Below, piece by piece: positions 5,632 to 44,123 of a stretch of DNA of 50,016 nt. The position numbers and the translations under genes are program-made. The notes under the pieces are model-generated. The model was not told the DNA's origin and did not search any database. It worked only from the letters and a program-made list of their open reading frames with translations. The stretch covers positions 1-50,016 of the IMG/VR virus record IMGVR_UViG_3300044961_000373; one strand, 5' to 3'. Origin of the DNA: a virus. How positions within the stretch are numbered: position 1 is the first letter of the stretch; every line of letters begins with the position of its first letter.

Positions 5632-8558
5632 TGGAAAAACAATTCATTTCAACCTCAATATTAGAACAACTACCCCGCTATATTTTAGCAGATTACCAGA
5701 CATTTGCCAGATTTTTACAAGCCTATTTCGAATGGCTGGAATTAGATACCAGTGTTGTAGGTAAATTGGATAGATTTAAGGATTTTCGTGATATAGATAA
5801 TACACTAATCGAATTTGTCAAACATTTTGAAAGCGAATATCTTTTTAATATTCCTAAGAATCTTTATAGTGAAAATGGTGTTTCGGTGAATAAGGCTTCT
5901 CTTATAAAACACATAAAGCAATTTAATCAAACGCGAGGAACAGAAAATTCTTTTAAACTCCTTTTTAGAATACTTTTCAATGAGGATGTTGAATTTTATT
6001 ATCCAAAGAGCGATATGCTTTATGTTTCTGATGGAAAGTGGTCGTTTGATGAGATTTTGAGATGTACAACAAATAATGATACGTTTTCTTTTATAGGAAA
6101 AAGAATATATGGTGTAACAAGCGGTGCTTCCGCCGCTGTCGAAAATATATTTAATATTCAAATAGATCAAGAACTTGTTTCAGAATTATATATTTCTGGA
6201 ATAATAGGAACTTTCCTTCCGGGTGAACAAATACGAATCACTATAGATGATGTTGATTATTTTGAAACACTATTTAATATGGTTTCAAAAATAAATGTGA
6301 TTGTACCAGGGATTGGATATAAAGTTGGTGATCCTATAATTATTATCGGGTCTAATAGTGGTGCTATTGCCGCTGAAGCCACAGTAGAAAAGGTAAAAGG
6401 GCGCATTTCAGACAATATAGCAGTAATTGATGGAGGATTTGGTTACAATTATCCTCCAACAGTACAAATTATAGGAACAGGTTTTGACGCAAAAGCGGAA
6501 GCAAAACTTTCTCCAACAGGGTTATTAAAGATTGAATTGATTAATAGTGGTTCTGGATTCGATATATTGAACCCCCCTTCTATTGAATTTATTCCAAATA
6601 TTATTTCATTAGAATTAATGGATATTTCGGATATTTTTCAAGTAGGAGAAATAGTTATAGGGCAGACTACAAACAGATCGGGTATCGTAAAGAGATTTTA
6701 TTTTGAAAGTGGTAAATATTATGTTGATTTAGAATCTTGTTCTGGTGTATTTCAAATAGATGAAAATATTGAAGGACAAACAAGTAATTCTACGGCAAAA
6801 ATAACAGATATGACTCCATCAGGAGCAATTGCTATTGCTGTAGTCGCAAATAATACAACGATTGAAAGAATTGATATATTAAATTCTGGACAAGGATTTG
6901 TTGATATTCCTAGAGTTGTTGTTCGAAATCAAGATGATTCTATTAATAATTCAGTTGTTGCTAGAGCATATTTAAATCCAACAACGGTATCACAAATAAT
7001 TTTATTAAATGGTGGAAGAGATTATACTTCAGAAGGTAATATTTTTGTTAAGTTTTCTGGAGGTTTTTTGGATGAGGGTAGGGATGCCGTAGCTTTAGCA
7101 GAAATTGAAGGTGGTATTGTAAATGTTTTAATTAATAATCCCGGTATTCGTTATGATGTTGTTCCATCATATTCATTGAGTTACGCTTCAGGAACAGGTG
7201 CCCAGCTTTCTTTTGAAATTGGACCAAAATATAAGAATCAAGGTAGATGGTTGAATACAGATAGTTTCATTTCTTCCGATAAATTTATACAAGATTCTTT
7301 TTATTATCAGGTATTTTCTTATGTTTTAAAATCGACACAAAGCATTAATTCATATCGTGATGTGGTAAAAAATATATTACATCCCGCAGGACTGATGTTA
7401 TTTGGAACAACAATTTTAACATCATTCTTTCAGCTTGGTCCAACATATTCTAGCTTAGAAGGTGAAAAATTTAGGTATTTGCCTAGAGAAAAAACAACGA
7501 TTTCTTACCCATTCCCGAATAATACTTATTGGAATACATACGCAAACACTCAAATATTCCCATGGTTAGGAACAATAATTGGTGATATTACATTAAACCC
7601 TAAGTCAAGAACAAATTGGATTCCTGATGTTTTTGTAAATGTATTTAATCCTACATTTGATGTTCCTACAACAGGTATGTTGGTTGAATATAATTTCATT
7701 GAAGGTGTAAATCCTCAGTTATTATATGATATTAGTGATAATCCAAAATATAATGGAATATTAGGTAATACCATATTACAAGATATTAATGATCCTGAAT
7801 GGGTTTCAACTGGACTTAGATTTGACGGACATTTTGTAAATTGTACGACTATTCCAGTAAATCAGTTAGAAAAGACAATTATTGTTGTTGCTAAAATTGA
7901 ACGTTTTGATAGACCTGCTTCTATTGTGGGATGTTTGGATAATGATAATTTAAATTTTGTATCCGGATATAGTATCAATGTGAATACAAATAAATCTATT
8001 AAATTTGTTACACAAAAGAGAGTATTATCTCCTCCAGGAACATTTAAGATTGAATATGATACAGCCCCAAACAGTATTTCAGAAACATCATGGTTTATGG
8101 TAGCATTGCGTTATAAAGATAACAGAATGATAGTTAATTTTAATAATGAACCTTCGGTGTTTGTTGATTTTCCTGTAAATGTTGTTTCTCGTGGTATTTT
8201 AAATAATTCGAAAGGTTTTTATTATGGAAACCAAGGTTATACACCACCCCTATCAGAAGGTTCATTTTATGGATCATCGTTTTATGGAAAAACATTATAT
8301 GGTGCTGGATCCGAAGTAAGTATTACGTTTATACCAATTAACTCGTTATTTAATGAATCATTGTTCAATGAAGTATTTTTCGATGGAAATGTTGAACAAC
8401 AAATTACATTCGTTCAACCTGTTATTGGTCAACCATTATTAAATGGTATTATTGCTTATTCCTATATCTATAATCGTTTAATTACCGATGAAGAGACGGA
8501 GGCAATTTATGTTTCATTGCGGACTTCTTTAAATTCAAGAGGAGTATTTCTTCCTTAA
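5631..8558 (+). CDS. Large baseplate wedge protein (gp7 position) with repeat modules and a LamG-like C-terminus
   Basis: The product has 975 residues. The first 150 (SILEQLPRYILADYQTFARF, then NQTRGTENSFKLLFRILFNE) match wedge proteins that follow gp6 in far-T4 relatives, at the place of T4 gp7. Residues about 150-560 hold repeated beta modules of two kinds: IDGGFGYNYPPTVQI-type and a GE-I-GQT(S/T) type. From about 679 on, the chain looks like a LamG/concanavalin-like domain: it opens MLVEYNF and closes IIAYSYIYNRLITDEETEAI, the usual end of such folds. This would put a sugar-binding module on the baseplate. gp7 identity is from position and size; direct homology is not certain. Confidence 0.65.
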   Translation: MEKQFISTSILEQLPRYILADYQTFARFLQAYFEWLELDTSVVGKLDRFKDFRDIDNTLIEFVKHFESEYLFNIPKNLYSENGVSVNKASLIKHIKQFNQTRGTENSFKLLFRILFNEDVEFYYPKSDMLYVSDGKWSFDEILRCTTNNDTFSFIGKRIYGVTSGASAAVENIFNIQIDQELVSELYISGIIGTFLPGEQIRITIDDVDYFETLFNMVSKINVIVPGIGYKVGDPIIIIGSNSGAIAAEATVEKVKGRISDNIAVIDGGFGYNYPPTVQIIGTGFDAKAEAKLSPTGLLKIELINSGSGFDILNPPSIEFIPNIISLELMDISDIFQVGEIVIGQTTNRSGIVKRFYFESGKYYVDLESCSGVFQIDENIEGQTSNSTAKITDMTPSGAIAIAVVANNTTIERIDILNSGQGFVDIPRVVVRNQDDSINNSVVARAYLNPTTVSQIILLNGGRDYTSEGNIFVKFSGGFLDEGRDAVALAEIEGGIVNVLINNPGIRYDVVPSYSLSYASGTGAQLSFEIGPKYKNQGRWLNTDSFISSDKFIQDSFYYQVFSYVLKSTQSINSYRDVVKNILHPAGLMLFGTTILTSFFQLGPTYSSLEGEKFRYLPREKTTISYPFPNNTYWNTYANTQIFPWLGTIIGDITLNPKSRTNWIPDVFVNVFNPTFDVPTTGMLVEYNFIEGVNPQLLYDISDNPKYNGILGNTILQDINDPEWVSTGLRFDGHFVNCTTIPVNQLEKTIIVVAKIERFDRPASIVGCLDNDNLNFVSGYSINVNTNKSIKFVTQKRVLSPPGTFKIEYDTAPNSISETSWFMVALRYKDNRMIVNFNNEPSVFVDFPVNVVSRGILNNSKGFYYGNQGYTPPLSEGSFYGSSFYGKTLYGAGSEVSITFIPINSLFNESLFNEVFFDGNVEQQITFVQPVIGQPLLNGIIAYSYIYNRLITDEETEAIYVSLRTSLNSRGVFLP

Positions 8559-21840: not shown

Positions 21841-22482
21841 ATGCCAAAAGCATTTAAGCAATATATCCAAGAAGCAATCGGAAACAAATATGTCAACCAC
21901 CAACTTCTTTCAAAAAAAGGATATGAATTAATGGGAACGGATCAATATTATAAAAAAGGTGCTCCTGGAATTAAATTAAAGAAAGGTGCTGAATGGGTTT
22001 CACTGAAAGATCCTAAATTAAAAGGAAAATCTACAACAGATTTGGCAAGATATTTGCGTTCAACGGGTGGTTTCCAAATTGATGAAGATGTTATAAAAAG
22101 TGAGGCGCATGCAAAGAAGCTTTATAAAAAATATAAGAAAGAATTAGAAAAATATGATGATATGGAAAAACGTAAAATTCGTATGCTCCCGGGTGAACAG
22201 ATCCGTTCTAGAGAATTGCGTTTTAAGATGAAAAAGTTAAAGAAAATGATTGGTCCTGATTATCCTATGGAAGAAGTAAATGATTTGGAAGAAAAATGTC
22301 ACGGTAAGGTAGATAATTTATCGTCTGATAAAAATCCTAATGTAAAAGAGGGTATGAATTGGAAACCATATACTTTTAGACGAAAGCGCGAAAAAGAGAT
22401 GAATGTAAATAGAGAAAAAGAAAGGATGACCGGAATGAAAAAGATTCCGATTGATATGAAATTTAAGCAAAAGAATAGTTAA
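21841..22482 (+). CDS. Basic protein with capsid-targeting-like N-terminus; candidate internal head protein
   Basis: The 213-residue product is strongly basic. Its start MPKAFKQYIQEA resembles the targeting sequence of T4 internal proteins (MKTYQEFIAEA), which the gp21-type protease removes after the Glu. Here the matching cut would be after Glu11. The body contains a Lys-rich coiled segment (KLYKKYKKELEKYDDMEKRK) and an Arg/Lys-rich C-terminus. Such proteins are packaged in the head and injected with DNA. A strong AGGAG site supports the start. It lies between gp13 and gp14. The function after injection is unknown. Confidence 0.65.
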   Translation: MPKAFKQYIQEAIGNKYVNHQLLSKKGYELMGTDQYYKKGAPGIKLKKGAEWVSLKDPKLKGKSTTDLARYLRSTGGFQIDEDVIKSEAHAKKLYKKYKKELEKYDDMEKRKIRMLPGEQIRSRELRFKMKKLKKMIGPDYPMEEVNDLEEKCHGKVDNLSSDKNPNVKEGMNWKPYTFRRKREKEMNVNREKERMTGMKKIPIDMKFKQKNS

Positions 22483-22484
22483 CT

Positions 22485-23384
22485 ATGCCAACAAATCCAT
22501 ACTTAAATCATTTAGGATTTACAAATATGAATGAACAGCTTTTGTATAACAATCTTATACAAGAAGCGATTCGTAATTATGGTATGGATGTTATCTATAT
22601 TCCGAAAACAATTTCTAAATTGGATTTACTATTCGGAGAAGATGTATTAAAGAAATTTGAAAAATATTATCCAATTGAAATGTATTTTGAATCTGTTGAT
22701 GGATTTTCTGATGACAGAAATTTTCTTTCCAAATTTGGTTTAGAAATACGAAAACAAGCAAATTTTGTTGTTTCTGTGGATCGCTTTTCGCAAGAAGTAC
22801 AAGATGATCCGAGTGTGGCTGTTCGCCCAAATGAAGGTGATTTGATTTACATGCCATTAACTCGTGATTTGTTCGAAATTGTATTTGTCGATCATGAAGC
22901 AATTTTCTGGCAACTAGGAAAAGTTTTTGTTTGGCGTATACTTGTAGAAAAATTTGCTTATTCTTCAGAAGAAATTAATACAGGAATCCCGGATATTGAC
23001 ACAATAGAAACGAATAATACAATGGTACAAGGTCCTATTTTTACAATACAATTAGAATCTGGTGGTTGGGGATATACTACTGCTCCAACAGTTGTTATTA
23101 CTGGCGGCGGAGGCTCCGGTGCTTCTGCTATCGCTACAATCAATACAAACGGAAATGTTATTTCTGTATCCGTTTCTTTTAATCCATTAACATTTGTTCC
23201 GTATACGAGTCCACCAACAATTACATTTACTGGTGGAAATGGGTATGGGGCAAGAGCGAGAGCAATTCTTGTTGATAATAATTATGGTTCAAAACCTGGA
23301 TCAAATAATACTTTAATACAAAATGATGCTGATGAAATTCTCGATTTCTTGGAAAGAGATCCATTCAGTGGAGGCAATTATTAA
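22485..23384 (+). CDS. gp14: Neck protein gp14 with an inserted GSGY module
   Basis: The 299-residue product has the gp14 signature: NPYLNHLGFTNMNEQLLYNNL, EAIRNYGMDVIYIPKTI, LFGEDVLKKFEKYYPIEMYF and a FSKFGLEI-like segment (FLSKFGLEIRKQANF). T4 gp14 has 256 residues. The extra length is a module at about 185-262 (GGWGYTTAPTVVI and YTSPPTITFTGGNGYGA), the same type as in the sheath and baseplate proteins. The family C-terminus (DEILDFLERDPFSGGNY) is retained, so the module is an internal insertion. The stop overlaps the gp15 ATG. Confidence 0.93.
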   Translation: MPTNPYLNHLGFTNMNEQLLYNNLIQEAIRNYGMDVIYIPKTISKLDLLFGEDVLKKFEKYYPIEMYFESVDGFSDDRNFLSKFGLEIRKQANFVVSVDRFSQEVQDDPSVAVRPNEGDLIYMPLTRDLFEIVFVDHEAIFWQLGKVFVWRILVEKFAYSSEEINTGIPDIDTIETNNTMVQGPIFTIQLESGGWGYTTAPTVVITGGGGSGASAIATINTNGNVISVSVSFNPLTFVPYTSPPTITFTGGNGYGARARAILVDNNYGSKPGSNNTLIQNDADEILDFLERDPFSGGNY

Positions 23385-28550: not shown

Positions 28551-29579
28551 ATGGCTTTTGTAGATTGTGAAGGATTCGAATCTCTTTATTCGAATGCACC
28601 TTCATTAAAAGAAGAATTTATATCAATAGCCGCCGTAACTAGTAGTACAGATCCACAAATAACTGCATTTGGTTTTGGGAAATGTTTCGGAACAGGTATA
28701 GGTACATTTGATCAATTGTTTGTTTCCAAATTTCCAGGTTTAGTAAACAAAAAAACAATTTTCTTCAATTGGCATTTTAAAAATGTAATTAATAATACTA
28801 TTACTTTTAATTTACTAACACTACAAGATGAAAGTATAACACAGGTTGCTTTAAGAAGAAATGGAGATGGTTCATTTTCCGCTCTTAGAGGCTCTACGGT
28901 TTTAGCAACATCACCTATAATTACAACTAATAATCAATATTATTTCCTTCAATTAAAAGTTGTAATTGATTCTACGAATGGTGAATTTATATTTAAAGTG
29001 GACAATTCGACAGTTTTTAATTTAACCGGAATTAATACACAAAATACTGCAAACGATTATGTAAATAGATATACATTTAATGCACAATCTAATACAATTT
29101 ATATTGATAATGTTGTTATTTATGATGATAGTGGGTCTGTAATGAATGATTTTACAGAAGAAACGAGAGTAATAGGTCAATATCCTACAGGAAATGGTGA
29201 CACGATTGAATGGACTCCCAATACTTCAACCAATTTTTCTAGAGTAAATCAGAATTATGATGGGGATACAACATATAATTTTACCGATACGGTAGGACAC
29301 ACTGATTTATTTACATATGCTTCTCTTGTTACATCAGGAGCAAATGTATATGCTATAAAAGTGGGATCCACATTTAGAAAAGATGATGCTAATACAAACG
29401 CGGTCGTAAATGTGGTAAAAAGTGGTGGTACGATTTATGAAGATCCTGCTGGTCCGTATGAATCTTCTCCTTCTTACATAATCAAAGAATGGATTATGAT
29501 AAATGATCCAAATACATCTTCACCATGGACTGTTTCTGCGGCAAATGCTATTCAATCAGGAATAAGAAGAAAATTATAA
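28551..29579 (+). CDS. Concanavalin-like lectin-fold virion protein, copy A
   Basis: The 342-residue product begins MAFVDCEGFESLY and continues with a jelly-roll pattern: FFNWHFKN, FLQLKVVIDSTNGEFIFKV, then IYIDNVVIYDDSG. The second half has RVIGQYPTGNGD, VNQNYDGDTTYNF and a final WTVSAANAIQSGIRRKL, as in a widespread phage family I know as lectin/glucanase-fold tail or decoration proteins. It has a very strong AGGAGG site. A close paralog follows directly. It may bind sugars on the host or stabilise the fiber. Confidence 0.75.
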   Translation: MAFVDCEGFESLYSNAPSLKEEFISIAAVTSSTDPQITAFGFGKCFGTGIGTFDQLFVSKFPGLVNKKTIFFNWHFKNVINNTITFNLLTLQDESITQVALRRNGDGSFSALRGSTVLATSPIITTNNQYYFLQLKVVIDSTNGEFIFKVDNSTVFNLTGINTQNTANDYVNRYTFNAQSNTIYIDNVVIYDDSGSVMNDFTEETRVIGQYPTGNGDTIEWTPNTSTNFSRVNQNYDGDTTYNFTDTVGHTDLFTYASLVTSGANVYAIKVGSTFRKDDANTNAVVNVVKSGGTIYEDPAGPYESSPSYIIKEWIMINDPNTSSPWTVSAANAIQSGIRRKL

Positions 29580-29593
29580 TAGGAGTTAATGGA

Positions 29594-30619
29594 ATGTCTT
29601 TTGTAGATTGTGAAGGATTCGAAACTATCAATAACAATGATGTAAAAGAAACACTCATAGGAGTTTCTAATAATTATATCACGAGTAGTGATCCACAAAT
29701 TACTGCTTTTGGATATGGTACAGCTTATGGAAAAAATGTCGGTGGTGCTGAAGATACCTTTTCTTGTTATTTTCCAGGTTTAGTAAACAAAAAAACAATT
29801 TTCTTCAATTGGCACCTGAAAGGTAATTCTACCACTGCTTCAACCAATATGCATTTGACGCTGTTAGATGGTGCATCAACACAGGTCGTTTTAAGAAGAA
29901 ATGGAGACAATTCATTTTCCGCTCTTAGAGGCTCTACGGTTTTAGCAACATCTTCTCCAATAATTACAGTAACAAAATATTATTTCCTTCAATTAAAAGT
30001 TGTAATTGATTCTACGAATGGTGAATTTATATTTAAAGTGGACAATTCGACAGTTTTTAATTTAACCGGAATTAATACACAAAATACTGCAAACGATTAT
30101 GTAAATAGATATACATTTTTAGTATTATCAAATTTTAATTTCATTGATAATGTTGTTGTTTATGATGATGCAGGAACACAAATGAATGATTTTACACCAG
30201 AAACTAGGGTTTTTGGTCAATTCCCTACTGCTAATGGTGATATAAATGAATTTACTCCCAATACTTCAACCAATTTTTCTAGAGTAAATCAGAGATATGA
30301 TGGGGATACAACATATAATTTTACCGATACGGTAGGACACACTGATTTATATGCATATAATGCTTTAGTACCTTCTGGATCTGCTGTATATGGAGTAAAG
30401 ACAAGCATTTTCTTTAGGAAATCGGATTTAGGAGATAATGAGGTCGTAAATGTGGTAAAAAGTGGTGGTACGATTTATGAAGATCCTGCTGGTCCGTATG
30501 AATCTTCTCCTTCTTACATAATCAAAGAATGGATTATGGAAAAAAATCCAAATACAAATGATTTTTGGACCGTTTCTGGAGCAAACTCATTACAAACAGG
30601 AATTAGAAGGAAATTATAG
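29594..30619 (+). CDS. Concanavalin-like lectin-fold virion protein, copy B
   Basis: The 341-residue product is a tandem paralog of the previous gene. The chosen start MSFVDCEGFETINN has TAGGAG upstream and aligns with copy A; a longer in-frame reading overlaps copy A and is rejected. DNA blocks at 29981-30118 and 30442-30538 are identical to 28941-29078 and 29402-29498, while the intervening parts differ. That pattern suggests recent duplication with local change or exchange. The role should match copy A, perhaps with altered ligand choice. Confidence 0.75.
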   Translation: MSFVDCEGFETINNNDVKETLIGVSNNYITSSDPQITAFGYGTAYGKNVGGAEDTFSCYFPGLVNKKTIFFNWHLKGNSTTASTNMHLTLLDGASTQVVLRRNGDNSFSALRGSTVLATSSPIITVTKYYFLQLKVVIDSTNGEFIFKVDNSTVFNLTGINTQNTANDYVNRYTFLVLSNFNFIDNVVVYDDAGTQMNDFTPETRVFGQFPTANGDINEFTPNTSTNFSRVNQRYDGDTTYNFTDTVGHTDLYAYNALVPSGSAVYGVKTSIFFRKSDLGDNEVVNVVKSGGTIYEDPAGPYESSPSYIIKEWIMEKNPNTNDFWTVSGANSLQTGIRRKL

Positions 30620-33218: not shown

Positions 33219-35126
33219 ATGGCATTCCAGATTTCACCAGGTGTGCTGACAAGAGAAATCGACCTTTCAACATATATACCAGCCATTGGAACAACTACCG
33301 GAGCAATTGCTGGATTATTTCAATGGGGTCCCGTTGAACAAAGAGTTCTTGTCGATAGTCCACTTTCTTTAGAAAAAGTTTTTGGTAAACCAGATAACGA
33401 GACTTATATAGATTGGTTTAGCGCATTCAATTTCTTATCATATGGAAATTCACTCTTAGTGATTCGCGCCGCTTCTGCTGCTGCAAAAAATGCAATTGCA
33501 AATAGTGGTAAAGTCGCTTCTCTCACCATTGTTTCCGGTGGATCCGGATATAATGCAGGAGATACTACAGTAACAATTTCTGCTCCACCTCCTGGCGGAA
33601 CACAAGCAACAGCAACATTAGTTATTGAAGGAGGAGTAATTACAGGAATTACAATTACGAATCCTGGATCTGGTTATACTTCTGCTCCTACTGTTACGGT
33701 TACAGATTCAAATTTAACACCTGGATCTGGTGCAAATATTACCGCTGCTCTTTATGTTCCTGTATTAATAAAAAATCTCGACGATTATACAGTAAATTAT
33801 GCAGCCGGAGAAGGAAATGTTGGTATGTGGGCGGCAAAATATCCAGGTGAATTAGGAAATTCTCTTACTGTTTCGATTGCTGATTCCGCATCATTTGCTG
33901 CTTGGGTATATAAAGATTTCTTTTCCTCAGCACCAGAAGTCGGGGAAGTTCATGTGATTGTTGTAGATAAAGGTGGTGTGATTTCAGGTACTCCTGATAC
34001 CGTTCTTGAAAAATTTGAATTTATGAGTAAGGCGGTTGATGCAAAGAAAGAAGATGGATCCTCAAACTATTACGCAAACGTAATCAATAGAACATCTTCA
34101 TGGATTTGGTGGATGGATCACCCAGTCGGATCGAACTGGGGTGCGGTAGAGGGAACAACATTCACAACAATTAGTACAGCATTGACAGAACGTCTTGGTG
34201 GTGGTGTTTCCGGAAACAATTCCGCAACCTCTTCCGCTTACATCAATGCTTGGAATTTAGTACAAAATGGTGATGATGTTGATGTATCGTTGTTAATAGG
34301 AAGTTCTCCAAATGTTTCTGATAATGTCGCAATAGTTTACCAACATATTGTCGATAATATTTGCGAAGTTCGAAGAGATGTTGTAGCATTTTTCTCTCCG
34401 GAAATGAGTGATGTTGTATCAAATCCCGGTAATGAATTGGATGATACCGTAGAATTCTTCACAACAACATTGAATCGTCCAACTTCATATGCGGTTGCCA
34501 CATGTAATTGGAAATATCAATATGATAAATTCAATGATACATTCCGTTGGGTTCCTGATAATGGAGATATTGCTGGATTATGTGTAAGAACAGATAGAGA
34601 TAGAGATCCTTGGTATTCACCAGCAGGATTTAATCGTGGTGTGTTAAAGAATGTTGTGGATCTTGCTTGGAAACCATCACAAGCGGATAGAGATGTTCTT
34701 TATGTAAATGGAATAAATCCTGTAACCACATTCAAAGGTCTTGGACCTGTATTGTATGGAGATAAGACTCTATTAAGAAAACCATCGGCATTTGATAGAA
34801 TCAATGTCCGCCGTCTGTTTATTGTTTTGGAAAAAGCAATTTCAACCGCAGCAAAATACTCATTATTTGAGTTTAATGATTCCTTTACGAGAGTTCAATT
34901 TCGAAATCTTGTTGAACCATTCTTAAGAGATGTTCAAGGAAGAAGAGGAATCTTTCAATTTCGTGTCGTTTGTGATGAAACGAATAATACACCAGAAGTA
35001 ATTGATAGTAATAGATTTATTGGTGATATTTACATTAAACCAGCGAGATCAATTAATTTTATTCAATTAAATTTCGTTGCAACAAGAACAGGTGTTGCAT
35101 TTGAGGAAATTGTTGGTAAATTTTAA
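33219..35126 (+). CDS. gp18: Tail sheath protein gp18 with GSGY insertion
   Basis: The 635-residue product begins [20 protein letters not shown] and ends IRPARSI-like ([31 protein letters not shown]), both clear sheath signatures. The conserved C-terminal core includes [20 protein letters not shown] and [17 protein letters not shown]. Residues about 99-179 form an inserted module with [14 protein letters not shown] and [13 protein letters not shown], a unit found in four other virion proteins here. It would be exposed on the sheath surface, since variable domains of sheath proteins face outward. A hairpin terminator follows the stop. Confidence 0.96.
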
Positions 35127-35810: not shown

Positions 35811-37556
35811 ATGGCAAATTGGCGCCTATTTGGATTTAGTATTGGAGATCCAGCCGAAAAATATAAAAAAGAATTAGAAAAACAAAAATCTTTTTCTATT
35901 CCTACTAATGAAGATGGTGCGGTAGTAATTCAGGCTGGTGGTGTTTTTGGTACTTATGTGGATCTTGACGGAGCTTCTGCTAAAAATGAAGTTGAATTAA
36001 TTACGAAATATCGTGAAATGTCTCTTACTCCGGAGGCATCAATGGCTATAGATGATATAGTTAATGAAGCGATAGTGATGGAGGATAATAAACCTCCAGT
36101 AAAACTCATTACAGATGATTTGCCATATGACAAGTCATTTAAGGGGAAATTAAATGACGAATTTGATAATATCATTGGACTTTTGGATTTTAATAACATC
36201 GGTTATGAAATATTTAGGCGTTGGTATGTTGATGGTAGGCTTTATTTCCATATCATCATTGATGAAGAAAATCCTCACGAAGGCATCAAAGAATTAAGAT
36301 ATATTGATCCGAGAAAAATAAGAAAGGTACGGGAAATTAAAAAGAAAATTGATAATATTACTGGATCCGAAGTAATTACGGATATACAAGAATATTATAT
36401 TTTCAACGAGAAAGGAATACAATCTTCCGCAGGTTTGTATACTGCTACGGGTATGGGTGGTGTGAAAATTTCTGTTGATTCAATATGTTATGTAAATTCC
36501 GGTCTTGTTGATGCACAATATAACACGATAGTTTCTCACCTTCATAAAGCAATCAAACCATTAAATCAATTAAGAATGATTGAAGATGCGATAGTAATAT
36601 ATCGTCTTTCAAGAGCACCAGAAAGAAGAATATTTTATATTGATGTTGGTAATTTGACGAAAACAAAAGCTGAAGCATATCTTAAAGAAGTTATGCAAAG
36701 ATATAGAAATAAATTGGTTTATGATTCTAATACCGGTGAAATTCGTGATGACAAACGGCATTTATCAATGTTAGAAGATTTTTGGCTTCCAAGAAGGGAA
36801 GGTGGAAAAGGAACGGAAGTTTCAACTCTCCAGGGTGGTCAAAATCTTGGAGAAATACAAGATGTAATGTATTTTAAGGAAAAATTATATAGAGCACTAG
36901 ATGTTCCTTTAAGTAGATTACAAACGGAATCTGGTTTTTCTTTAGGACGCGCTTCTGAAATTACTCGTGATGAGTTGAAATTTACAAAAGCTATCCACAG
37001 GATGAGAATTCGCTTTTCTCATTTATTTGACAAATTATTAAAAATACAATGCATTTTAAAAGGAATTATTGCCGAAGAAGATTGGGAAGAAATTACTAAA
37101 AAGATTTATTATAAATACCAAAAAGATTCTTATTTTTCTGAATTGAAAAATTCAGAAATTCTCCAAAATCGTGCGACGGTTCTACAACAATTAGAACCAT
37201 ATGTTGGAAAATATTATTCAAAAGATTATGTATACAAAAATGTTCTGCTTATGAATGAAGAAGAAATAGAGGATATGAAGGTGAAAATAGAAACTGAGAG
37301 AAAAGAAGAATCTGAAAACAATTTAAATCAATTTAATAATACACAAAATGATATGAATACATTACCTTTTGATCCGAATATATCACCTGATGATCAAAAC
37401 GCTCAACCACAGAATTTTCCTACTAATGAATTACCATTACCGCAAGAAAATAAAAAACAAGAACCGGGCAGAAAAAAACAAGAATTTAGGAACGAAAAAG
37501 AAATTAATTTAGTAAAAAGAGAGAAAAAAGAAAATCCTAAATTTATGTCCAAATAA
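35811..37556 (+). CDS. gp20: Portal vertex protein gp20
   Basis: The 581-residue product (T4 gp20 has 524) carries family motifs: YREMSLTPEASMAIDDIVNEAI, IIGLLDFNNIGYEIFRRWYVDG, IKPLNQLRMIEDAIVIYRLSRAPERRIFYIDVGN, and VPLSRLQTESGFSLGRASEITRDELKFTKAI, all quoted in part only as recognised. The portal ring initiates head assembly and is the DNA gate. A C-terminal tail from about residue 500 is rich in Asn, Gln, Pro and Lys and looks unstructured; it accounts for the extra length. GAGGAAAA precedes the start. Confidence 0.95.
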   Translation: MANWRLFGFSIGDPAEKYKKELEKQKSFSIPTNEDGAVVIQAGGVFGTYVDLDGASAKNEVELITKYREMSLTPEASMAIDDIVNEAIVMEDNKPPVKLITDDLPYDKSFKGKLNDEFDNIIGLLDFNNIGYEIFRRWYVDGRLYFHIIIDEENPHEGIKELRYIDPRKIRKVREIKKKIDNITGSEVITDIQEYYIFNEKGIQSSAGLYTATGMGGVKISVDSICYVNSGLVDAQYNTIVSHLHKAIKPLNQLRMIEDAIVIYRLSRAPERRIFYIDVGNLTKTKAEAYLKEVMQRYRNKLVYDSNTGEIRDDKRHLSMLEDFWLPRREGGKGTEVSTLQGGQNLGEIQDVMYFKEKLYRALDVPLSRLQTESGFSLGRASEITRDELKFTKAIHRMRIRFSHLFDKLLKIQCILKGIIAEEDWEEITKKIYYKYQKDSYFSELKNSEILQNRATVLQQLEPYVGKYYSKDYVYKNVLLMNEEEIEDMKVKIETERKEESENNLNQFNNTQNDMNTLPFDPNISPDDQNAQPQNFPTNELPLPQENKKQEPGRKKQEFRNEKEINLVKREKKENPKFMSK

Positions 37557-37575: not shown

Positions 37576-37740
37576 ATGGAAGAAAAACGTTATGGTGCTT
37601 CTTTAGGTGTTTATTATAAAGGAAAAACGAAAGTTGAAGAACCAAAAGAAGAAAAGAATGAAAAGAAAATGACATTAAAGGAAATTTTTGAAACAACAAA
37701 AACAAAACCAAGAGGTACTAAAAATGACAATCGCCCATAA
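37576..37740 (+). CDS. Small Lys/Glu-rich prohead core protein (gp67 position)
   Basis: A 54-residue frame begins MEEKRYGASLGVYYKGKTKV and is followed by an acidic and basic stretch (EEPKEEKNEKK) and a short tail. Its place directly after the portal gene, its size and its charge match T4 gp67, the core peptide cut up by the prohead protease. AGGAG lies ten bases upstream. It overlaps the next gene by 17 bases. Homology cannot be proved for so short and low-complexity a protein. Confidence 0.6.
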   Translation: MEEKRYGASLGVYYKGKTKVEEPKEEKNEKKMTLKEIFETTKTKPRGTKNDNRP

Positions 37741-38104
37741 AATTGTTGAAAACATTTTAAAAGATGAGGCACAATCTTGTTTCGAAAATTTCGATGTTGC
37801 TTTAAAGATAAAAACATATCCAATTATTTCGGAAGCAGCAAAACAAATTGCTTCAACTGTTATTTTTGAAGCAAAAGATACACCCTCTGATTTTAATTTA
37901 CAAGAGAAAATTTATAATTCTTTTCCACCACAAACACAAAAAGCAATTGATTTTGTTATCGAAAAAGTTGCTGAATACGGTACCAAAAATTTTTCAAATA
38001 TCATAGAAGACGCGGAAGTTAAGTATGCTATTGTTGATGATAGTTTAAAAGAATATTTTGGTCAAGCAATTACAGCAAAATTGTACGAATCAAACGTTCT
38101 TTAG
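37724..38104 (+). CDS. Prohead core protein candidate (gp68 position)
   Basis: The start MTIAHKIVENILKDEAQSC has AGAGG eight bases upstream and is preferred to an upstream in-frame ATG that lies within the previous gene. The 126-residue product is largely helical. Its N-terminal hydrophobic helix ends ILKDE-A, like the sites cut by the T4-type prohead protease. It occupies the place of T4 gp68 between portal and protease. Sequence similarity is not evident to me, so the assignment is from position and the cleavage-like motif. Confidence 0.6.
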   Translation: MTIAHKIVENILKDEAQSCFENFDVALKIKTYPIISEAAKQIASTVIFEAKDTPSDFNLQEKIYNSFPPQTQKAIDFVIEKVAEYGTKNFSNIIEDAEVKYAIVDDSLKEYFGQAITAKLYESNVL

Positions 38105-38203: not shown

Positions 38204-39127
38204 ATGGTAAATCCATCAAAAACAATAGTTTCGTCTATATTAAATGAGGATGCCGTTACACTTTCAGATACATTTAACGAAACTCTTTTGAAATCTTTAC
38301 AAAATAAATTAGAATCTGTAAAGATGAAGATTGTTTCGGAAGTTTTTGATAATGGTGAATTTTCTGTTCGCCAACTGAAGGAACAGGTGGCAAGAGAAAA
38401 AAAATCGTTAAGAGATATGGTATTAGTAGGTTTGTCTTCAAATCTTGTTGAAGATTTTTCTTTAAAACCAAAGGATAAAGAAGAATTAAAGCGCGGTCGT
38501 GTAAGAACAGTAAACAAATTTAGAAATATGCCTAGCCAACATATGGATTCTTACCGTGACCACCAGGAATATTATAAGAAAAATCCAACTTGGGCAGGAA
38601 AGCCTTCCTTTATGAAATCACCTGCTCATTTTATCGGAATCAAAACTGAAGATTTTTCTTTAAAACCAAAAACGAGACAAGATTATGAAGCAAGACGTGT
38701 GAATAAACCAATCCATTATGTTCCTGCTAAAAAAATGAATGCCAACTCTCTTATTGGAGATAAAGAAAATATGGGAATGAGTCGTAAATCATTACGTTCT
38801 TGGAAACCTGTGAAAGAAGATCATTCTCTAAAACTCGCAAATCCTAGACAAAGAAAATTATTTACTGATTTTTCATCCTTTAAACAACATAAAATAGAGA
38901 AGGATGCTGATTTAAAAACAGCAAACGCAATTAAACAGATAAACAAAGAGAAAAAAGATACTTATAAAAGATGGATGAATAATCGGTGGATGAGAAAGGA
39001 AGATTTTTCTTTAAAACCAAAATCTTCGCATGATATAATTTCTCGCAAAGTTGGTAATCCGAAAAGTATGGTTTCCACTCACCGTAAATCATTATTAAAA
39101 AATTTTGCTTTAGGGAGCAAAATTTAA
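38204..39127 (+). CDS. Prohead-region protein with four EDFSLKPK-type repeats; frame shifts near its end
   Basis: The 307-residue product is basic. A first region (1-80) is helical and contains SSILNE-DA, a possible prohead protease site. Then come the peptides EDFSLKPK at 83-90, 149-156 and 266-273, and a weaker EDHSLKL at 205-211. Between them are Arg/Lys-rich segments (SYRDHQEYYKKNPTW). The last codons run into a stop at 39125, but the +1 frame continues for about 25 codons to a TAATG overlap with the next gene, as is usual in this genome. Two neighbouring genes carry the same peptide. It is probably packaged in the head; function unknown. Confidence 0.75.
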   Translation: MVNPSKTIVSSILNEDAVTLSDTFNETLLKSLQNKLESVKMKIVSEVFDNGEFSVRQLKEQVAREKKSLRDMVLVGLSSNLVEDFSLKPKDKEELKRGRVRTVNKFRNMPSQHMDSYRDHQEYYKKNPTWAGKPSFMKSPAHFIGIKTEDFSLKPKTRQDYEARRVNKPIHYVPAKKMNANSLIGDKENMGMSRKSLRSWKPVKEDHSLKLANPRQRKLFTDFSSFKQHKIEKDADLKTANAIKQINKEKKDTYKRWMNNRWMRKEDFSLKPKSSHDIISRKVGNPKSMVSTHRKSLLKNFALGSKI

Positions 39128-39200
39128 TCATCGTGGTGATTTGATTAGAACAAAAGATAATAAGGTTATCGGTGTATCGAAAGGGGTTTCACAATTCTAA
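39117..39200 (+). other. Likely frameshifted C-terminal extension of the preceding gene
   Basis: In the +1 frame after the AAAA-TTT at 39119-39125, the sequence reads KFNHRGDLIRTKDNKVIGVS and continues to GVSQF before TAA at 39198-39200. The codon use is coding-like, and the stop overlaps the next ATG in a TAATG junction. One base fewer would fuse it to the preceding protein. A sequencing indel, a real mutation or a programmed shift are all possible. Confidence 0.6.
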
Positions 39201-39664
39201 TGAAGTCTTTTTCCAATTTTATTAAAGAAGCGAAAGGATTGTGGCAACAGAATTCTGTTTTCTTTAAAACAGGTCAAAAATATGCCGAAAAAGGAAAGGA
39301 AAAAACTCATCCAGACGGACAAAAAAAGCTTTCTCATCAAGAATATTATGATCTTCCAAGAGAAGCGAGAAAAGCATATAGAGAAAAATATGGAAATGTG
39401 TATGAAGATTTTTCCTTAAAACCGAAAACAAAAAAAGAATTAGATAGAAGAGAAAAATTAATAAACATACCACAAATACAAGATAAAGTAAAAGGAAAAA
39501 ATATTGTTCCAATATTAAAAAAGAGTATGGGAAAAAGTGATGATACCGGATCACCAAATACTAAAATACAATTTTATAAATGGACAAAATATATTGATAA
39601 GATGTCCGGAAAAAAACCAAAATCAATAAGAAAATTTTTCAAAAGAGAATTAAGTTTAGATTAA
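39200..39664 (+). CDS. Candidate internal head protein with targeting sequence and EDFSLKPK motif
   Basis: The 154-residue basic product begins MKSFSNFIKEAKGLW, closely like the T4 capsid-targeting sequence MKTYQEFIAEA; the expected cut is after Glu10. EDFSLKPK stands at residues 69-76 and is followed by TKKELDRREK. Highly charged segments rich in Lys, Arg and Glu make up the rest. It lies between the four-repeat protein and a small virion protein, upstream of the protease gp21. I infer that it is packaged in the head and perhaps injected. Confidence 0.7.
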   Translation: MKSFSNFIKEAKGLWQQNSVFFKTGQKYAEKGKEKTHPDGQKKLSHQEYYDLPREARKAYREKYGNVYEDFSLKPKTKKELDRREKLINIPQIQDKVKGKNIVPILKKSMGKSDDTGSPNTKIQFYKWTKYIDKMSGKKPKSIRKFFKRELSLD

Positions 39665-39676
39665 TAGGAGCATTGA

Positions 39677-40099
39677 ATGTCGGTTACAGCACAAATAATT
39701 AAAGATTCAACGAGGGAAACCGTCATTAAATTAACAAATTATGGCATAACTGAATCTGCTGTCACGAAAGTAGATGCCTCCACATTAGTAGGTGCCATAG
39801 AAGGACAATCGTTTCATGAAATTGTTATTACTAATATTTCATGGTCTGTTTCTGGATCTGGTGTGGTCACTTTACTTTGGGACGCAGGAACACCACAACC
39901 TATTGTAAATCTGAGTGGATCCGGATCATTGCGTTATACTGGTGGAGAATTTATCATGATACGGAATAATGCTTCAAACCCGAATGGAGATATTAAATTG
40001 ACTACAAATAATTGGGGTGCAACAGTAGCTTATACAATTATTTTAACTCTTTCCAAATTAACAAATTTTGATAGAGGCGGAGTCGATTCAGTAGGATAG
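39677..40099 (+). CDS. Small beta-sandwich virion protein
   Basis: The 140-residue product shows alternating beta strands: STRETVIKLTNYG, ESAVTKVDASTLVGA, EIVITNISWSVSGSGVVTLLWD, then SGSLRYTGGEFIMI and a final VAYTIILTLSKLTNF. I recognise this as a conserved small structural protein of T4-like marine phages, often near head genes. A role as head decoration is plausible from its place between head genes. TAGGAG precedes the start. Confidence 0.75.
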   Translation: MSVTAQIIKDSTRETVIKLTNYGITESAVTKVDASTLVGAIEGQSFHEIVITNISWSVSGSGVVTLLWDAGTPQPIVNLSGSGSLRYTGGEFIMIRNNASNPNGDIKLTTNNWGATVAYTIILTLSKLTNFDRGGVDSVG

Positions 40100-40108
40100 G
40101 ATAATCAT

Positions 40109-40675
40109 ATGAAAACATTTAGTCAATTCATACAAGAGTCTATTAATATTATCGAACATGCTCCGAGAAAGGTTACTAAGACATTATATAAAGGTCCGAT
40201 TAAAAAAATCGGAACAAAATATGAAGAAATGAATGGTATGGAAGAAGGATATCGGGAACGCCGTAAAGGGGAAAAGAAAACTTCTTCTAACCCCGAATCG
40301 AATGTAAAGAAAGAAGATTTTTCTCTGAAACCAAAATCGAAAGAAGATTTAGCAAAACGGGATTTATCTCATCACCCACCTGTTCCACAAGATGAATATT
40401 TCAGACGGTCTGCAAAACGATGGTCAACAAAAGAAATGGATAGAGCACTTAGGCAGAAAAAGTGGAATATGGATCCGAGAACCGGAAATTTAGAAAACAG
40501 AAAAAGAGCGAGTGGTATTTCCGGCGGCGATCTTTCTGCGGCCGTAAAAACATCTAGATGGGCGAAAGAAAAGAAAAAATCATTTGGAATTCATTATGGA
40601 AAAGTTGATTATATTCCTCAGGGACATAAAGATGCTTATAAAGAAACACTCAGAAAGAAAGGAATTAAAGTGTAA
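40109..40675 (+). CDS. Candidate internal head protein with targeting sequence and EDFSLKPK motif, second copy
   Basis: The 188-residue basic product begins MKTFSQFIQESINII, again like T4 internal proteins, with a likely cut after Glu10. EDFSLKPK occurs at 69-76, exactly the same position as in the gene at 39200, followed by SKEDLAKRDL. The C-terminal part (RWSTKEMDRALRQKKW, SGISGGDLSAAVKTSRW) has no recognised domain. The shared start and motif position with 39200 suggest common descent, while the bodies differ. It directly precedes the protease gp21. Confidence 0.7.
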   Translation: MKTFSQFIQESINIIEHAPRKVTKTLYKGPIKKIGTKYEEMNGMEEGYRERRKGEKKTSSNPESNVKKEDFSLKPKSKEDLAKRDLSHHPPVPQDEYFRRSAKRWSTKEMDRALRQKKWNMDPRTGNLENRKRASGISGGDLSAAVKTSRWAKEKKKSFGIHYGKVDYIPQGHKDAYKETLRKKGIKV

Positions 40676-40680
40676 TTCCT

Positions 40681-41379
40681 ATGGGAAAAACAATGAAACT
40701 TATTACGGAATATAAAGATTTCGGTCAAGACATAACATATCTTACTGAAGACGTACCTGGGGTAGGAAAAAAATATTTTATTTCTGGTATTTTTTTGCAA
40801 GCTAATGTAAAAAATCGTAATAATAGAATTTATCCTGAAGAAATTATGGAAAGAGAAGTGAATCGCTATACAAACAATTATATCTTAAAACGCAGAGCAT
40901 TTGGGGAATTAGGACATCCTGAAGGTCCTTTGATTAATTTAGATCGCGTTTCACATTTAATTGAACATTTAACTAGAGATGGATCTAATTGGATCGGAAA
41001 GGCAAAGATTTTAGACACACCGAATGGAAAAATTGTAAAAGCGATGATAGATGATGGAGCGCAATTAGGTGTCTCATCGCGTGGTGTAGGTTCATTAACA
41101 AATAAAAATGGAGTAAATATTGTAGGTGATGATTTTATGCTATCAACCGCAGCCGATATTGTTGCAGATCCTTCAGCACCGGCAGCATTTGTGAATGGAG
41201 TAATGGAAGGAAAAGAATGGGTTTGGAATAATGGTATTTTAAAAGAAGAAAAAATTGCGGAAATTGCGAAAACAATAAAAAAGAGACCATTAAAAAAAGG
41301 TATTAAAAAACATGTAATTGATGAAGAATCCGCAATAAAAGCATTTTCTCATTTTTTATCCGAAATTTCAAAATATTAA
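40681..41379 (+). CDS. gp21: Prohead core protease gp21
   Basis: The product has 232 residues (T4 gp21 has 212) and is a serine protease of the herpesvirus-like prohead type. Motifs are YFISGIFLQANVKNRNNRIYP, the catalytic His in FGELGHPEG (His79) and the catalytic Ser in GVSSRGVGSL (Ser132/133). It cleaves core and capsid proteins after Glu in Ile/Leu-x-Glu contexts. Its own N-terminus has LITE, a possible self-cleavage site. An alternative start at 40693 (MKLITEYKDF) is possible and has GGGA closer to it. Confidence 0.93.
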   Translation: MGKTMKLITEYKDFGQDITYLTEDVPGVGKKYFISGIFLQANVKNRNNRIYPEEIMEREVNRYTNNYILKRRAFGELGHPEGPLINLDRVSHLIEHLTRDGSNWIGKAKILDTPNGKIVKAMIDDGAQLGVSSRGVGSLTNKNGVNIVGDDFMLSTAADIVADPSAPAAFVNGVMEGKEWVWNNGILKEEKIAEIAKTIKKRPLKKGIKKHVIDEESAIKAFSHFLSEISKY

Positions 41380-41432: not shown

Positions 41433-42671
41433 ATGGCAAATACGCTGGAAAAAGCAATTCGTTCTGTTTTAACAGAAGCAGGTCCAGATTCAATTCCTGG
41501 AAGAGTTGAACCAACACCTGAATTCCATGAAGTTGGGGGATCAACACATGACAATGTTGCTCCAAAATTAGATTATGCTAAAACAATCAAACCGGGACAA
41601 GGAAAACTTCCTAATGCTTCCGGAGGTGGACCGGAAAAGAATCCAACAAAATATAAAAAGAGCGAAGACTTGGATCCTAAAAAGGAAATGAGTGAAGAAG
41701 AAGAAGTTGATGGTGATTCATTAGAAGAGGATTCAGAAAGACTTCCAAATTGGTTAAAAACTCTTGTTTCTGAAAATCTCGAAGAAGAAGAGGAGATTTC
41801 AGAAGAAGATGAAATTTCAGAAGAAGAGGAGATTTCAGAAGAAGATGAAATTTCAGAAGAAGAGGAAGAAGTTGAATTTGAAATTAATGAAGAATATTTC
41901 AACGAAAAACGCGCCGAGGCCTTTTCTGTTGCTGAAGAATCTTTATTGAGCATTTTCGGAGATAATAAATTATCTGAATCTTTCAAGACAAAGTTGGTTT
42001 CTGTTTTCGAAGCTGCTGTCCAAACACAAGTAGAAGTAATCCGAGAAGAATTAGAAGCAAGATATGAATTAGCTCTCAATGAACAAGTGAAAGAAATTTC
42101 AAATGCTCTAGTTGAGAGAGTTGATACATATTTGGATTATGTTGCAGAACAATGGTTGAATGAAAATGAAATCGCAATTGAAAGAAGCATGAAAGCTGAA
42201 TTAACAGAAAGTTTCATGTCAGATTTAAAGAAATTGTTTGAAGAACATTATATTGAAGTTCCAGAAAAGAAATTGGATGTTCTGAATTCTCTCGCTGAAC
42301 AGAATGAAAAGTTGTCTGTACAATTAAATAAAACATTAACTGAATTAATCGAAACGAAAATGTCGTTGAAGGAATATAAAAAGGAAGAATTGATCACAGA
42401 AGCAACTCGTGGAATGATTGATTCAAAGGCATCAAAATTGCGTAAGTTAGCCGAAGCAATTGAATTTGACGATGATTTTGAAGAAAAGATAAATTCATTG
42501 AAAGAAACAGTTAATGGTTCTTCTTCAAAAACATCAAAGAAAACAACACTTACAGAAGATGCAGATAAAGGAAAAGATATGAACGAAAAGGAGAAGAAAA
42601 GCACTTCTGATCCTCTTATCGAACAAACTTTAAATATCTTAAATCGTACAGGTTCTACAATTAAGAAATAA
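41433..42671 (+). CDS. gp22: Prohead scaffold protein gp22 with acidic repeat insert
   Basis: The 412-residue product is much longer than T4 gp22 (269). The N-terminus SVLTE-AGPDS has a good prohead protease site. Residues 117-147 are an acidic tandem repeat of EISEED and EISEEE. The rest (150-370) is helical scaffold-like sequence, e.g. FKTKLVSVFEAAVQTQVEVI and MSDLKKLFEEHYIEVPEKKLD, followed by a charged tail. It forms the core around which gp23 assembles and is then degraded. It lies between gp21 and gp23 as in T4. Confidence 0.92.
   Translation: MANTLEKAIRSVLTEAGPDSIPGRVEPTPEFHEVGGSTHDNVAPKLDYAKTIKPGQGKLPNASGGGPEKNPTKYKKSEDLDPKKEMSEEEEVDGDSLEEDSERLPNWLKTLVSENLEEEEEISEEDEISEEEEISEEDEISEEEEEVEFEINEEYFNEKRAEAFSVAEESLLSIFGDNKLSESFKTKLVSVFEAAVQTQVEVIREELEARYELALNEQVKEISNALVERVDTYLDYVAEQWLNENEIAIERSMKAELTESFMSDLKKLFEEHYIEVPEKKLDVLNSLAEQNEKLSVQLNKTLTELIETKMSLKEYKKEELITEATRGMIDSKASKLRKLAEAIEFDDDFEEKINSLKETVNGSSSKTSKKTTLTEDADKGKDMNEKEKKSTSDPLIEQTLNILNRTGSTIKK
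41781..41873 (+). repeat. 18-bp tandem repeat in gp22
   Basis: Alternating GAAGAAGAGGAGATTTCA and GAAGAAGATGAAATTTCA units give a 36-bp higher period. The encoded peptide is an (EISEE[DE]) series. Copy number could change by slippage. Confidence 0.85.
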
Positions 42672-42731: not shown

Positions 42732-44063
42732 ATGTCAGTTATTGATGAATTAAAACAACAACAGTCCCACACAGCCGCTTTGGTTGAAGCATGGTCTGCT
42801 GTTCTGGATCATGAATCTGCTCCGCCGATTGTTAATCACCGCGGGCAGCCGGATTATACCAGAAAAGCTGTTACCGCTCAACTATTAGAAAACACAAAGG
42901 AGGCATTGCTTGAAGAAAGACGCCAACTTCTGAATGAAGCGCCTTCCGCTCCTGCTAATAATATTGGTGGTGGTGCGATTGGAACATGGGATCCTATTCT
43001 GATTTCTCTTGTCCGTCGTGCTATGCCAAATCTTATTGCTTATGATTTGTGTGGTGTTCAACCAATGACAGGTCCTACGGGACTTATCTTTGCGATGAAA
43101 TCGCGTTACATAAATCAAACAGGTGATGAAGCATTATTTAATGAAGCAAAAACAGATTTCTCAGGAACAGGTATTACTGGTGGTGCTGCTCACTCAGGAA
43201 CCTCTCCATTTGATGTGGGTTTTTCAACCGGTACCGGAATTTCGACCGCAAATGCAGAACAGCTTGGATCTGATCCTGCTTTAGATTTCCCTGAAATGGC
43301 ATTCAGCATTGATAAAGTGACTGTTTCAGCACAATCAAGAGCATTGAAATCAGAATACAGCATGGAATTAGCGCAAGATTTGAAAGCAATTCGCGGAATG
43401 GATGCTGAGACAGAATTGGCGAATATTCTTTCTGCTGAAATCTTAACAGAAATCAACAGAGAAATTATCCGCCGTCTGTATAGCATCGCCGTTGTCGGTG
43501 CTCAGTTTGGGACCGCCGTCCCCGGTGAATACAACCTGAACCTTGACTCAAACGGACGTTGGTCTGTGGAACGCTTTAAGGGTCTTCTTTTCCAAGCTGA
43601 CCGTGAAGCAAACGCAATTGCGAAAGAAACTCGTAGAGGACGTGGTAACTTCATCGTTTGCTCTTCTGACGTTGCTTCCGCATTATCTTTGACAGGTGTT
43701 CTTGATTATGCTCCCTCAATTTCATCCAACTTAAATGTTGATGATACAGGAAATACATACGTCGGAACACTTCAAGGAAAATTCCGTGTATATATCGACC
43801 CATATTTCGGTGGTTCTTCAACTCACGAATTATTGGTTGTTGGATATAAGGGTGCTTCTCCGTTTGATGCTGGATTCTTCTATTGCCCATATGTTCCGCT
43901 GCAAATGGTGAGAGCAATCGACCCGAATACATTCCAGCCAAAGATTGGATTCAAAACACGTTATGGAATGGTTGGAAATCCGTTCTGGGGAGCAACACCT
44001 GGGGCATTGACTCCAAATAGTAATCCTTATTTCCGTAAAGTGAAAGTGCTCAATATCAACTAA
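42732..44063 (+). CDS. gp23: Major capsid protein gp23
   Basis: The product has 443 residues (T4 gp23 has 521) and clear gp23 motifs: IGTWDPILISLVRRAMPNLI, YDLCGVQPMTGPTGLIFAMK, AEYSMEL-like (LKSEYSMELAQDLKAIRGMD) and RRGRGNFIVCSSDVASAL. The propeptide should be removed by gp21 after LLNE69, leaving a mature chain starting APSAP. Codon use is less AT-biased at the third position than in its neighbours (TCC, GCC, CGT choices), as expected for the most highly expressed gene. A perfect palindromic terminator follows. Confidence 0.97.
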   Translation: MSVIDELKQQQSHTAALVEAWSAVLDHESAPPIVNHRGQPDYTRKAVTAQLLENTKEALLEERRQLLNEAPSAPANNIGGGAIGTWDPILISLVRRAMPNLIAYDLCGVQPMTGPTGLIFAMKSRYINQTGDEALFNEAKTDFSGTGITGGAAHSGTSPFDVGFSTGTGISTANAEQLGSDPALDFPEMAFSIDKVTVSAQSRALKSEYSMELAQDLKAIRGMDAETELANILSAEILTEINREIIRRLYSIAVVGAQFGTAVPGEYNLNLDSNGRWSVERFKGLLFQADREANAIAKETRRGRGNFIVCSSDVASALSLTGVLDYAPSISSNLNVDDTGNTYVGTLQGKFRVYIDPYFGGSSTHELLVVGYKGASPFDAGFFYCPYVPLQMVRAIDPNTFQPKIGFKTRYGMVGNPFWGATPGALTPNSNPYFRKVKVLNIN

Positions 44064-44090: not shown

Positions 44091-44123
44091 ATGGGAGTCA
44101 AGTTAACTTGACTCCCATTTTTT
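44091..44123 (+). terminator. Perfect palindromic terminator after the capsid gene
   Basis: A 28-bp perfect palindrome (44091-44118; half-site ATGGGAGTCAAGTT) ends in a run of T. It ends the late transcript of gp23. The following 128 bases to 44251 hold two late boxes and otherwise no gene. Confidence 0.92.

Follow-up and report, generated by a model that had tools for sequence, protein, structure and literature searches.

A short peptide element repeated in three putative head-internal proteins of a T4-like phage and its possible role as a docking motif

What does a short peptide signify when it recurs in three otherwise dissimilar genes situated between the portal and prohead protease genes of a phage? 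The question is raised by a 50,016-nucleotide stretch, positions 1 to 50,016 of IMG/VR virus record IMGVR_UViG_3300044961_000373, which was analysed as a whole and is called the window here. The octapeptide EDFSLKPK occurs in three of its open reading frames (ORFs), which are named by their start positions. We propose that the three products are very probably head-internal proteins of a deeply branching T4-like phage. The motif itself may serve as a docking site for one common partner inside the head, a function suggested by sequence to which we assign a probability of roughly 0.45. The three motif genes are as follows.

38204 to 39127, + strand: motif protein 1 (ORF 38204), 307 amino acids (aa), isoelectric point (pI) 10.1, with three exact motif copies and one doubtful copy
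39200 to 39664, + strand: motif protein 2 (ORF 39200), 154 aa, pI 10.0, resembling T4 internal proteins (IPs)
40109 to 40675, + strand: motif protein 3 (ORF 40109), 188 aa, pI 10.1, resembling T4 IPs

The motif copies, each exact one with its tail, are located at these positions.

38450 to 38503, + strand: copy 1 (EDFSLKPK at 38450-38473, residue 83 of ORF 38204), with a candidate gp21 cut inside it (LVE↓D, the arrow marking the cut)
38648 to 38701, + strand: copy 2 (EDFSLKPK at 38648-38671, residue 149 of ORF 38204)
38816 to 38839, + strand: degenerate and doubtful copy EDHSLKLA (residue 205 of ORF 38204), matching at 5 of 8 positions
38999 to 39052, + strand: copy 3 (EDFSLKPK at 38999-39022, residue 266 of ORF 38204)
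39404 to 39457, + strand: copy 4 (EDFSLKPK at 39404-39427, residue 69 of ORF 39200)
40313 to 40366, + strand: copy 5 (EDFSLKPK at 40313-40336, residue 69 of ORF 40109)

The original prediction, made from the sequence alone, counted six copies. Its coordinates and residue numbers are correct, but only five copies are exact. The five matches of EDHSLKLA are equalled or exceeded in 563 of 20,000 shuffles of the remaining ORF 38204 protein, and this copy scores just 0.2 bits with a profile built from the five exact ones. The charged tail, previously described as [KR]-x2-[DE]-x3-R, is indeed present but is better expressed in another form. After the octamer, all five copies have S, T or D at position +1, D or E at +4 and a hydrophobic residue at +5, and four have R at +8 (G in copy 1). 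The conserved element comprises about 16 residues, EDFSLKPK-[STD]-x2-[DE]-hydrophobic-x2-[R/G]. At the DNA level, the octamer is on average 92% identical between copies. The 24 nucleotides on its 3' side retain an identity of 0.47 compared with a background of 0.31, a value attained by 0.0004 of random sets, and the 24 nucleotides on its 5' side are unconserved (0.26). Helix capping boxes usually take the form S/T/D-x-x-D/E. In single-sequence AlphaFold2 models of ORFs 39200 and 38204, a helix begins two residues past three of the four exact copies modelled, although these models are of low confidence (mean predicted local distance difference test score, pLDDT, of 51 and 56, respectively, and mostly below 50 at the motifs).

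Chance repetition was rejected, since in 20,000 shufflings the longest peptide common to all three proteins had five residues, and this occurred once. Furthermore, a DNA search allowing up to 3 mismatches returned five matches in the window, the same five copies, compared with none in 100 dinucleotide shuffles. A DNA-level element was rejected as well, because every copy is in frame within a motif gene, the codons vary synonymously and no copy occurs elsewhere in the window. The exact copies differ pairwise by 0 to 4 nucleotides, every difference being synonymous. The peptide is thus kept in all five DNA-similar copies while the codons differ, which points to selection on the peptide. A near-identical IMG/VR record of 59,154 bases, 99.98-99.995% identical to the window across a 47.7 kb overlap, adds 11.5 kb and brings the searchable part of this phage to about 61 kb. 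No further copy of EDFSLKPK was found in the remaining window or in these additional 11.5 kb. A heptapeptide common to at least three ORFs on the + strand was found in 4 of 166 loci or windows, all four being copies of this phage; by our count, 158 of the 166 stem from other phages.

Why these proteins should belong to the head interior is suggested by how two of them begin. The relevant features, including a control ORF that lacks the motif, are the following.

39200 to 39229, + strand: capsid-targeting sequence MKSFSNFIKE of ORF 39200, in the T4 IPIII register F/Y4-F7-I8-E10, with a predicted gp21 cut before A11
40109 to 40138, + strand: capsid-targeting sequence MKTFSQFIQE of ORF 40109, with a predicted gp21 cut before S11
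21841 to 22482, + strand: control ORF 21841, basic, 213 aa, pI 9.8, with the targeting-like start MPKAFKQYIQEA and no motif, adjoining the head-closure gene

ORFs 39200 (MKSFSNFIKEA) and 40109 (MKTFSQFIQES) begin like T4 IPII and IPIII (MKTYQEFIAEA). Both fit the strict targeting pattern, in agreement with the original prediction that two of the three proteins have a T4-like capsid-targeting start. This pattern is found at 3 of 90 ORF starts (39200, 40109 and 21841), compared with a mean of 0.001 in shuffled N-termini. The residues F4, F7, I8 and E10, which correspond to the key positions of IPIII, are present in both proteins. In IPIII, according to the available text of PMC9026906, residues 4 and 7 serve targeting and residues 8 and 10 direct processing. 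ORF 38204 starts without such a sequence. Since ORF 21841 carries a targeting sequence but no motif, the motif appears to be unneeded for head targeting as such and is not the entry tag itself.

The location of candidate gp21 sites indicates what would become of the motif during maturation. In ORFs 39200 and 40109, the form [LI]xE[AGS] occurs solely at residue 8, where the targeting sequence ends (candidate sites IKE↓A and IQE↓S). A Ser directly past a gp21 cut, as in the latter, is less usual. The broad gp21 consensus, given as L/I-x-E in the available text of PMC9026906, adds one site in ORF 40109, ending at E16, and none occurs at or beyond the motif in either protein. The motif starts at residue 69 in both, 59 residues past the predicted cut, and because it is situated past every candidate cut, it should persist in the mature proteins. 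ORF 38204 has no site of the form [LI]xE[AGS] and three of the form L/I-x-E, ending at residues 15, 60 and 83; its second and third exact motif copies should, judging from these positions, persist as well. It could be argued instead that the gp21 protease or the portal recognizes the motif as a signal for processing or sorting and that no stable docking site is involved. The motif genes do lie near gp20 and gp21, and copy 1 in ORF 38204 contributes to LVE↓D, a match to the broad consensus as worded in that source (PMC9026906). However, an L/I-x-E is present at the start of only one of the five exact copies, the fuller [LI]xE[AGS] in none, and the residues preceding ED vary among copies, in line with the low upstream nucleotide identity. 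The motif was accordingly rejected as a gp21 cleavage signal, and we regard the broader processing or sorting role as very improbable.

ORF 38204 appears to enter the head by a different route, as indicated by its N-terminal domain.

38219 to 38356, + strand: gp67-type core domain, residues 6-51 of ORF 38204 (iterated profile, E-value (E) 1.6e-4, the best match in the phage)

The profile was iterated from one marine gp67-type protein and gathers 149 ORFs in 147 loci, T4 gp67 included. Among the ORFs of the phage it ranks ORF 38204 first (E 1.6e-4), followed by ORF 37724 (E 1.4e-3), with the next at E 1.0. The likeness to T4 gp67 (PIP), a prohead-core protein, lies in this domain and in the slot after gene 20. 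The two proteins differ in that T4 gp67 has 80 aa and an acidic tail, whereas ORF 38204 has 307 aa, is basic and carries the repeated motif. The head scaffolding protein gp68 occupies the same slot in T4, but a gp68 profile gave no match below E 3.3 among the ORFs of the phage, nor was a basic C-terminal tail like that of gp68 observed. Homology to gp68 was rejected as not significant. Past the stop codon of ORF 38204, at window positions 39110-39199, another frame encodes KFNHRGDLIRTKDNKVIGVSKGVSQF, which includes the peptide RGDLIRTKDNK and resembles the conserved T4 gp68 stretch ARGEITRTKDRK. The near-identical record has the same out-of-frame reading. This stretch could be either a frameshifted gene end or a sign of programmed frameshifting.

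The gene neighbourhood provides a further argument. Its landmarks are listed below.

35811 to 37556, + strand: gp20, portal protein (phrog_213, E 4e-205; PF07230, E 5e-178)
37724 to 38104, + strand: ORF 37724, gp67-type prohead-core protein without the motif, pI 4.7 (gp67-type profile, E 1.4e-3)
39677 to 40099, + strand: ORF 39677, interposed gene of 140 aa without the motif (weak similarity to PHROG 16110, E 0.0055)
40681 to 41379, + strand: gp21, prohead protease (phrog_207, E 3e-79; PF03420, E 1e-35)
41433 to 42671, + strand: gp22, scaffold, net charge -50, candidate partner (phrog_237, E 2e-59; PF25623, E 2e-58)
42732 to 44063, + strand: gp23, major capsid protein (phrog_138, E 3e-139), with the candidate gp21 site LNE↓A from residue 67

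The very strong profile matches of gp20, gp21, gp22 and gp23 identify the window as a fragment of a T4-like phage. Its portal protein is 51-55% identical to those of the best-ranked annotated relatives, marine T4-like phages (cyanophages and Pelagibacter phage Mosig), and the best IMG/VR match kept has 56% identity, the near-identical record aside. The gene order is gp20, a gp67-type gene, the three motif genes, gp21, gp22 and gp23, compared with 20-67-68-21-22-23 in T4. The motif genes thus lie where T4 has genes 67 and 68, between the portal and protease genes. They are not strictly adjacent, as had been supposed, because ORF 39677 separates 39200 from 40109.

There is thus good support for the idea that one short motif links a family of head-internal proteins encoded here. 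It comes from the location of the genes between gp20 and gp21, from the targeting sequences of two proteins and the gp67-type domain of the third, and from the basicity of all three (each with a pI of about 10 and a net charge between +20 and +30). T4 IPI, IPII and IPIII are likewise short basic proteins with the N-terminus MK[TS][FY]xxFIxE[AS] (95-193 aa, pI 8.9-9.5), and residues 4, 7, 8 and 10 of IPIII are matched here. There are also differences. The genes of this phage are situated between genes 20 and 21, whereas T4 ipI-III are located elsewhere. In addition, judged by shared 5-mers, the targeting sequence is all that T4 IPII and IPIII have in common, and IPI has no 5-mer in common with either of them, while the proteins described here have a second shared element.

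Basicity also suggests a different role, in which the internal proteins condense DNA and the motif is their structural unit, an extended basic segment and a capped helix recurring along the DNA at intervals of about 60 residues, with no specific protein partner. Apart from the charge, the near-regular spacing of the motif starts in ORF 38204 (66, 56 and 61 residues, the doubtful copy being counted) and the distance of 59 residues from the predicted cut to the motif in ORFs 39200 and 40109 are compatible with such a repeat. However, EDFSLKPK is nearly neutral and unusually strictly kept, and the basic spacers show no residual similarity to one another (P above 0.09 in 24 of 24 comparisons). ORFs 38204 and 39200 share the 5-mer HQEYY, but 12% of shuffles also produce some shared 5-mer. 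An exact octamer is more than charge by itself would require, and we consider a purely DNA-condensing role unlikely.

We therefore return to docking. In T4, as described in the available text of PMC9026906, propeptides tie the IPs to the core, propeptide removal frees them, and internal proteins co-purify with gp22. If the T4 propeptide is the link to the core and is lost on cleavage, a motif that stays must act later or additionally. We propose that the proteins would enter the prohead core by two routes, ORF 38204 through its gp67-type N-terminal core domain and ORFs 39200 and 40109 through T4 IP-type targeting sequences that would be cut off by gp21 after residue 10. Beyond these entry signals, they would share a lineage-private element of about 16 residues, formed by an extended EDFSLKPK, a Ser/Thr/Asp helix cap and a helix start of acidic, hydrophobic, two variable and Arg residues. 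This element would remain in mature 39200 and 40109 and in at least the later copies of 38204. Through it, the three basic proteins may bind one partner. The likeliest candidates are the acidic core proteins gp22 and ORF 37724 and the inner face of the capsid or portal. ORF 38204, with its three or four copies, could act as a multivalent hub, and the single-copy proteins 39200 and 40109 as its clients.

Is the motif known from elsewhere? In the searches of sequence collections, the motif patterns encoded Ser as TCN, leaving out AGY serines, and one IMG/VR search also encoded Thr as ACN. The degenerate form [DE][DE][FY]S[LIVMF]KPK was found in 41 viral stretches, two of them from this phage. 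None of the other 39 has the +4/+5 extension and none matches gp20-gp23 or the three motif proteins; one matches the sheath and three match the terminase gp17. The exact or relaxed IMG/VR search gave four non-self stretches. Three contain EDFTFKPK in near-identical, very large proteins, and the fourth (L010) contains EDFSLKPK without the extension in a 244-aa ORF on a contig with a sheath match. All of these IMG/VR matches are isolated ones that lack the extension, and none is accompanied by a gp20-gp23 match within the stretch examined. A motif profile searched against 164 relative loci gave a best E of 0.02, the L010 match, with the next two at E 9.9. No paper containing the string EDFSLKPK was found in the literature searched, nor any on such a motif among the matches listed. 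A search of the PDB with ORF 40109 as the query gave no match, and NCBIfam gave a single match far below its cut-off. The view that no described motif resembles EDFSLKPK is consistent with the IMG/VR, INPHARED, prokaryote-genome and literature searches made.

Among the prokaryote genomes searched, representing 84,980 species, 16 stretches were found; 14 encode the exact peptide in one frame or another, and the proteins concerned are unrelated or the frames short. Two of these 14 have the acid-hydrophobic pair at +4/+5, and none also has R or G at +8. Two of the prokaryote matches are presumably starts of leucyl-tRNA synthetases. These matches look scattered and chance-like and none has the full extension, so that host mimicry was rejected. 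The same result bears on the possibility that the proteins leave the head together with the DNA, as T4 IPs do, and that the motif acts in the host, all three binding the same host target (a nuclease, a polymerase or a nucleoid protein). The motif is situated past the candidate gp21 sites in 39200 and 40109, as such a role would allow, and lineage-private sequences fit host-specific effectors. On the other hand, three effectors with an identical ligand motif, present in 3-4 copies on a gp67-type core protein, would be less economical than a shared assembly partner, and the prokaryote matches give no sign of mimicry. Action in the host thus appears rather unlikely.

Several observations weigh against a docking motif in head-internal proteins. 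A profile of 7 Straboviridae gp67s does not recognize ORF 38204 significantly (E 4.6), and the L/I-x-E ending at residue 83 of this protein would cut inside motif copy 1. The strict targeting sequence occurs in none of 160 relative loci and the relaxed one in 54 of 160. ORF 21841 and the gp67-type ORF 37724 are both motif-free, so that the motif is dispensable for entry, which also weakens its interpretation as a general packaging tag. Homologues of the three motif proteins were not found in INPHARED (E 0.4 or worse, or no match), and in IMG/VR only the near-identical record was recovered, by a search tuned to close relatives. The original prediction had named occurrence in relatives by chance only, with no conservation, as evidence against the motif. 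No credible copy was indeed found in any other phage searched, yet homologues of the proteins that would carry it were not found either, and conservation between lineages therefore cannot be judged.

The codons present a further difficulty. They are more alike between copies than expected for independent draws (6.4 of 8 compared with 4.6, P 0.002), which points to common descent or gene conversion, and fairly recent copying or gene conversion could be behind part of the motif identity. Taken further, the motif copies could be duplication remnants: one ancestral internal protein was duplicated, its spacers diverged until no likeness was left, and the motif is alike because of recent copying or gene conversion and not because of binding. 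This scenario agrees with the matching placement of targeting sequence and motif in 39200 and 40109, and with the single copy in 38204 that looks decayed. However, the peptide is intact in all five DNA-similar copies despite the codon differences, where amino-acid changes would be expected if it were unselected, and the upstream flanks show identity only at the background level. Duplication without a binding function is, in our estimation, improbable.

Parallels in other phages place a docking motif in a wider context. The giant phages SPN3US and phiKZ also have expanded sets of internal head proteins in one phage. In the available text of PMC5694885, these head paralog families are related by whole-protein similarity (PSI-BLAST), whereas the proteins of the present phage have no more than about 16 residues and the targeting sequence in common. 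In L094, L097 and L098, the best IMG/VR portal relatives, the corresponding slot after gp20 contains an ORF of about 308 aa in which a different module, GFKGVLEK...WV, occurs twice past the start. The start of this protein resembles gp67 by eye; it is absent from the list of gp67-type profile matches, and the resemblance is unproven. In locus L047, at positions 5591-8000, the gp67-type profile matches three consecutive ORFs, two of which contain, by eye, cysteine-rich zinc-ribbon-like repeats. The gene 67/68 slot may thus be a site where core-targeted cargo diversifies, the EDFSLKPK set being the version found in this phage.

Other features of the window were noted in passing. A 12-pair palindrome at 44091-44118, directly 3' of gp23, resembles a terminator when read on either strand and has a run of T on the + side. 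Two tandem neighbour genes at 28551-30619 have about 83% DNA identity over about 850 bp, the first belonging to PHROG 2448, of unknown function. The head-closure and tail-sheath proteins (22485-23384 and 33219-35126) contain an additional segment resembling portions of other families of tail, baseplate and head-closure proteins, which gives the impression of a shared inserted domain.

Head entry of T4 internal proteins is described by a 10-residue targeting sequence in the available text of PMC9026906, which regards the function of IPII, and precisely what IPIII does, as still open. It is conceivable, though doubtful at present, that T4-type phages use a second, lineage-private code beside the targeting sequence, in which a docking motif that survives maturation tethers otherwise unrelated internal proteins to one partner, here around a multivalent gp67-derived hub. 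If true, this second code would determine the choice of internal proteins packed together, their proportions or the way they exit the head. An element kept in the mature proteins would also be a concrete peptide with which to seek a partner in the head or the host, and the motif is a candidate for a short tag for loading proteins into phage heads.

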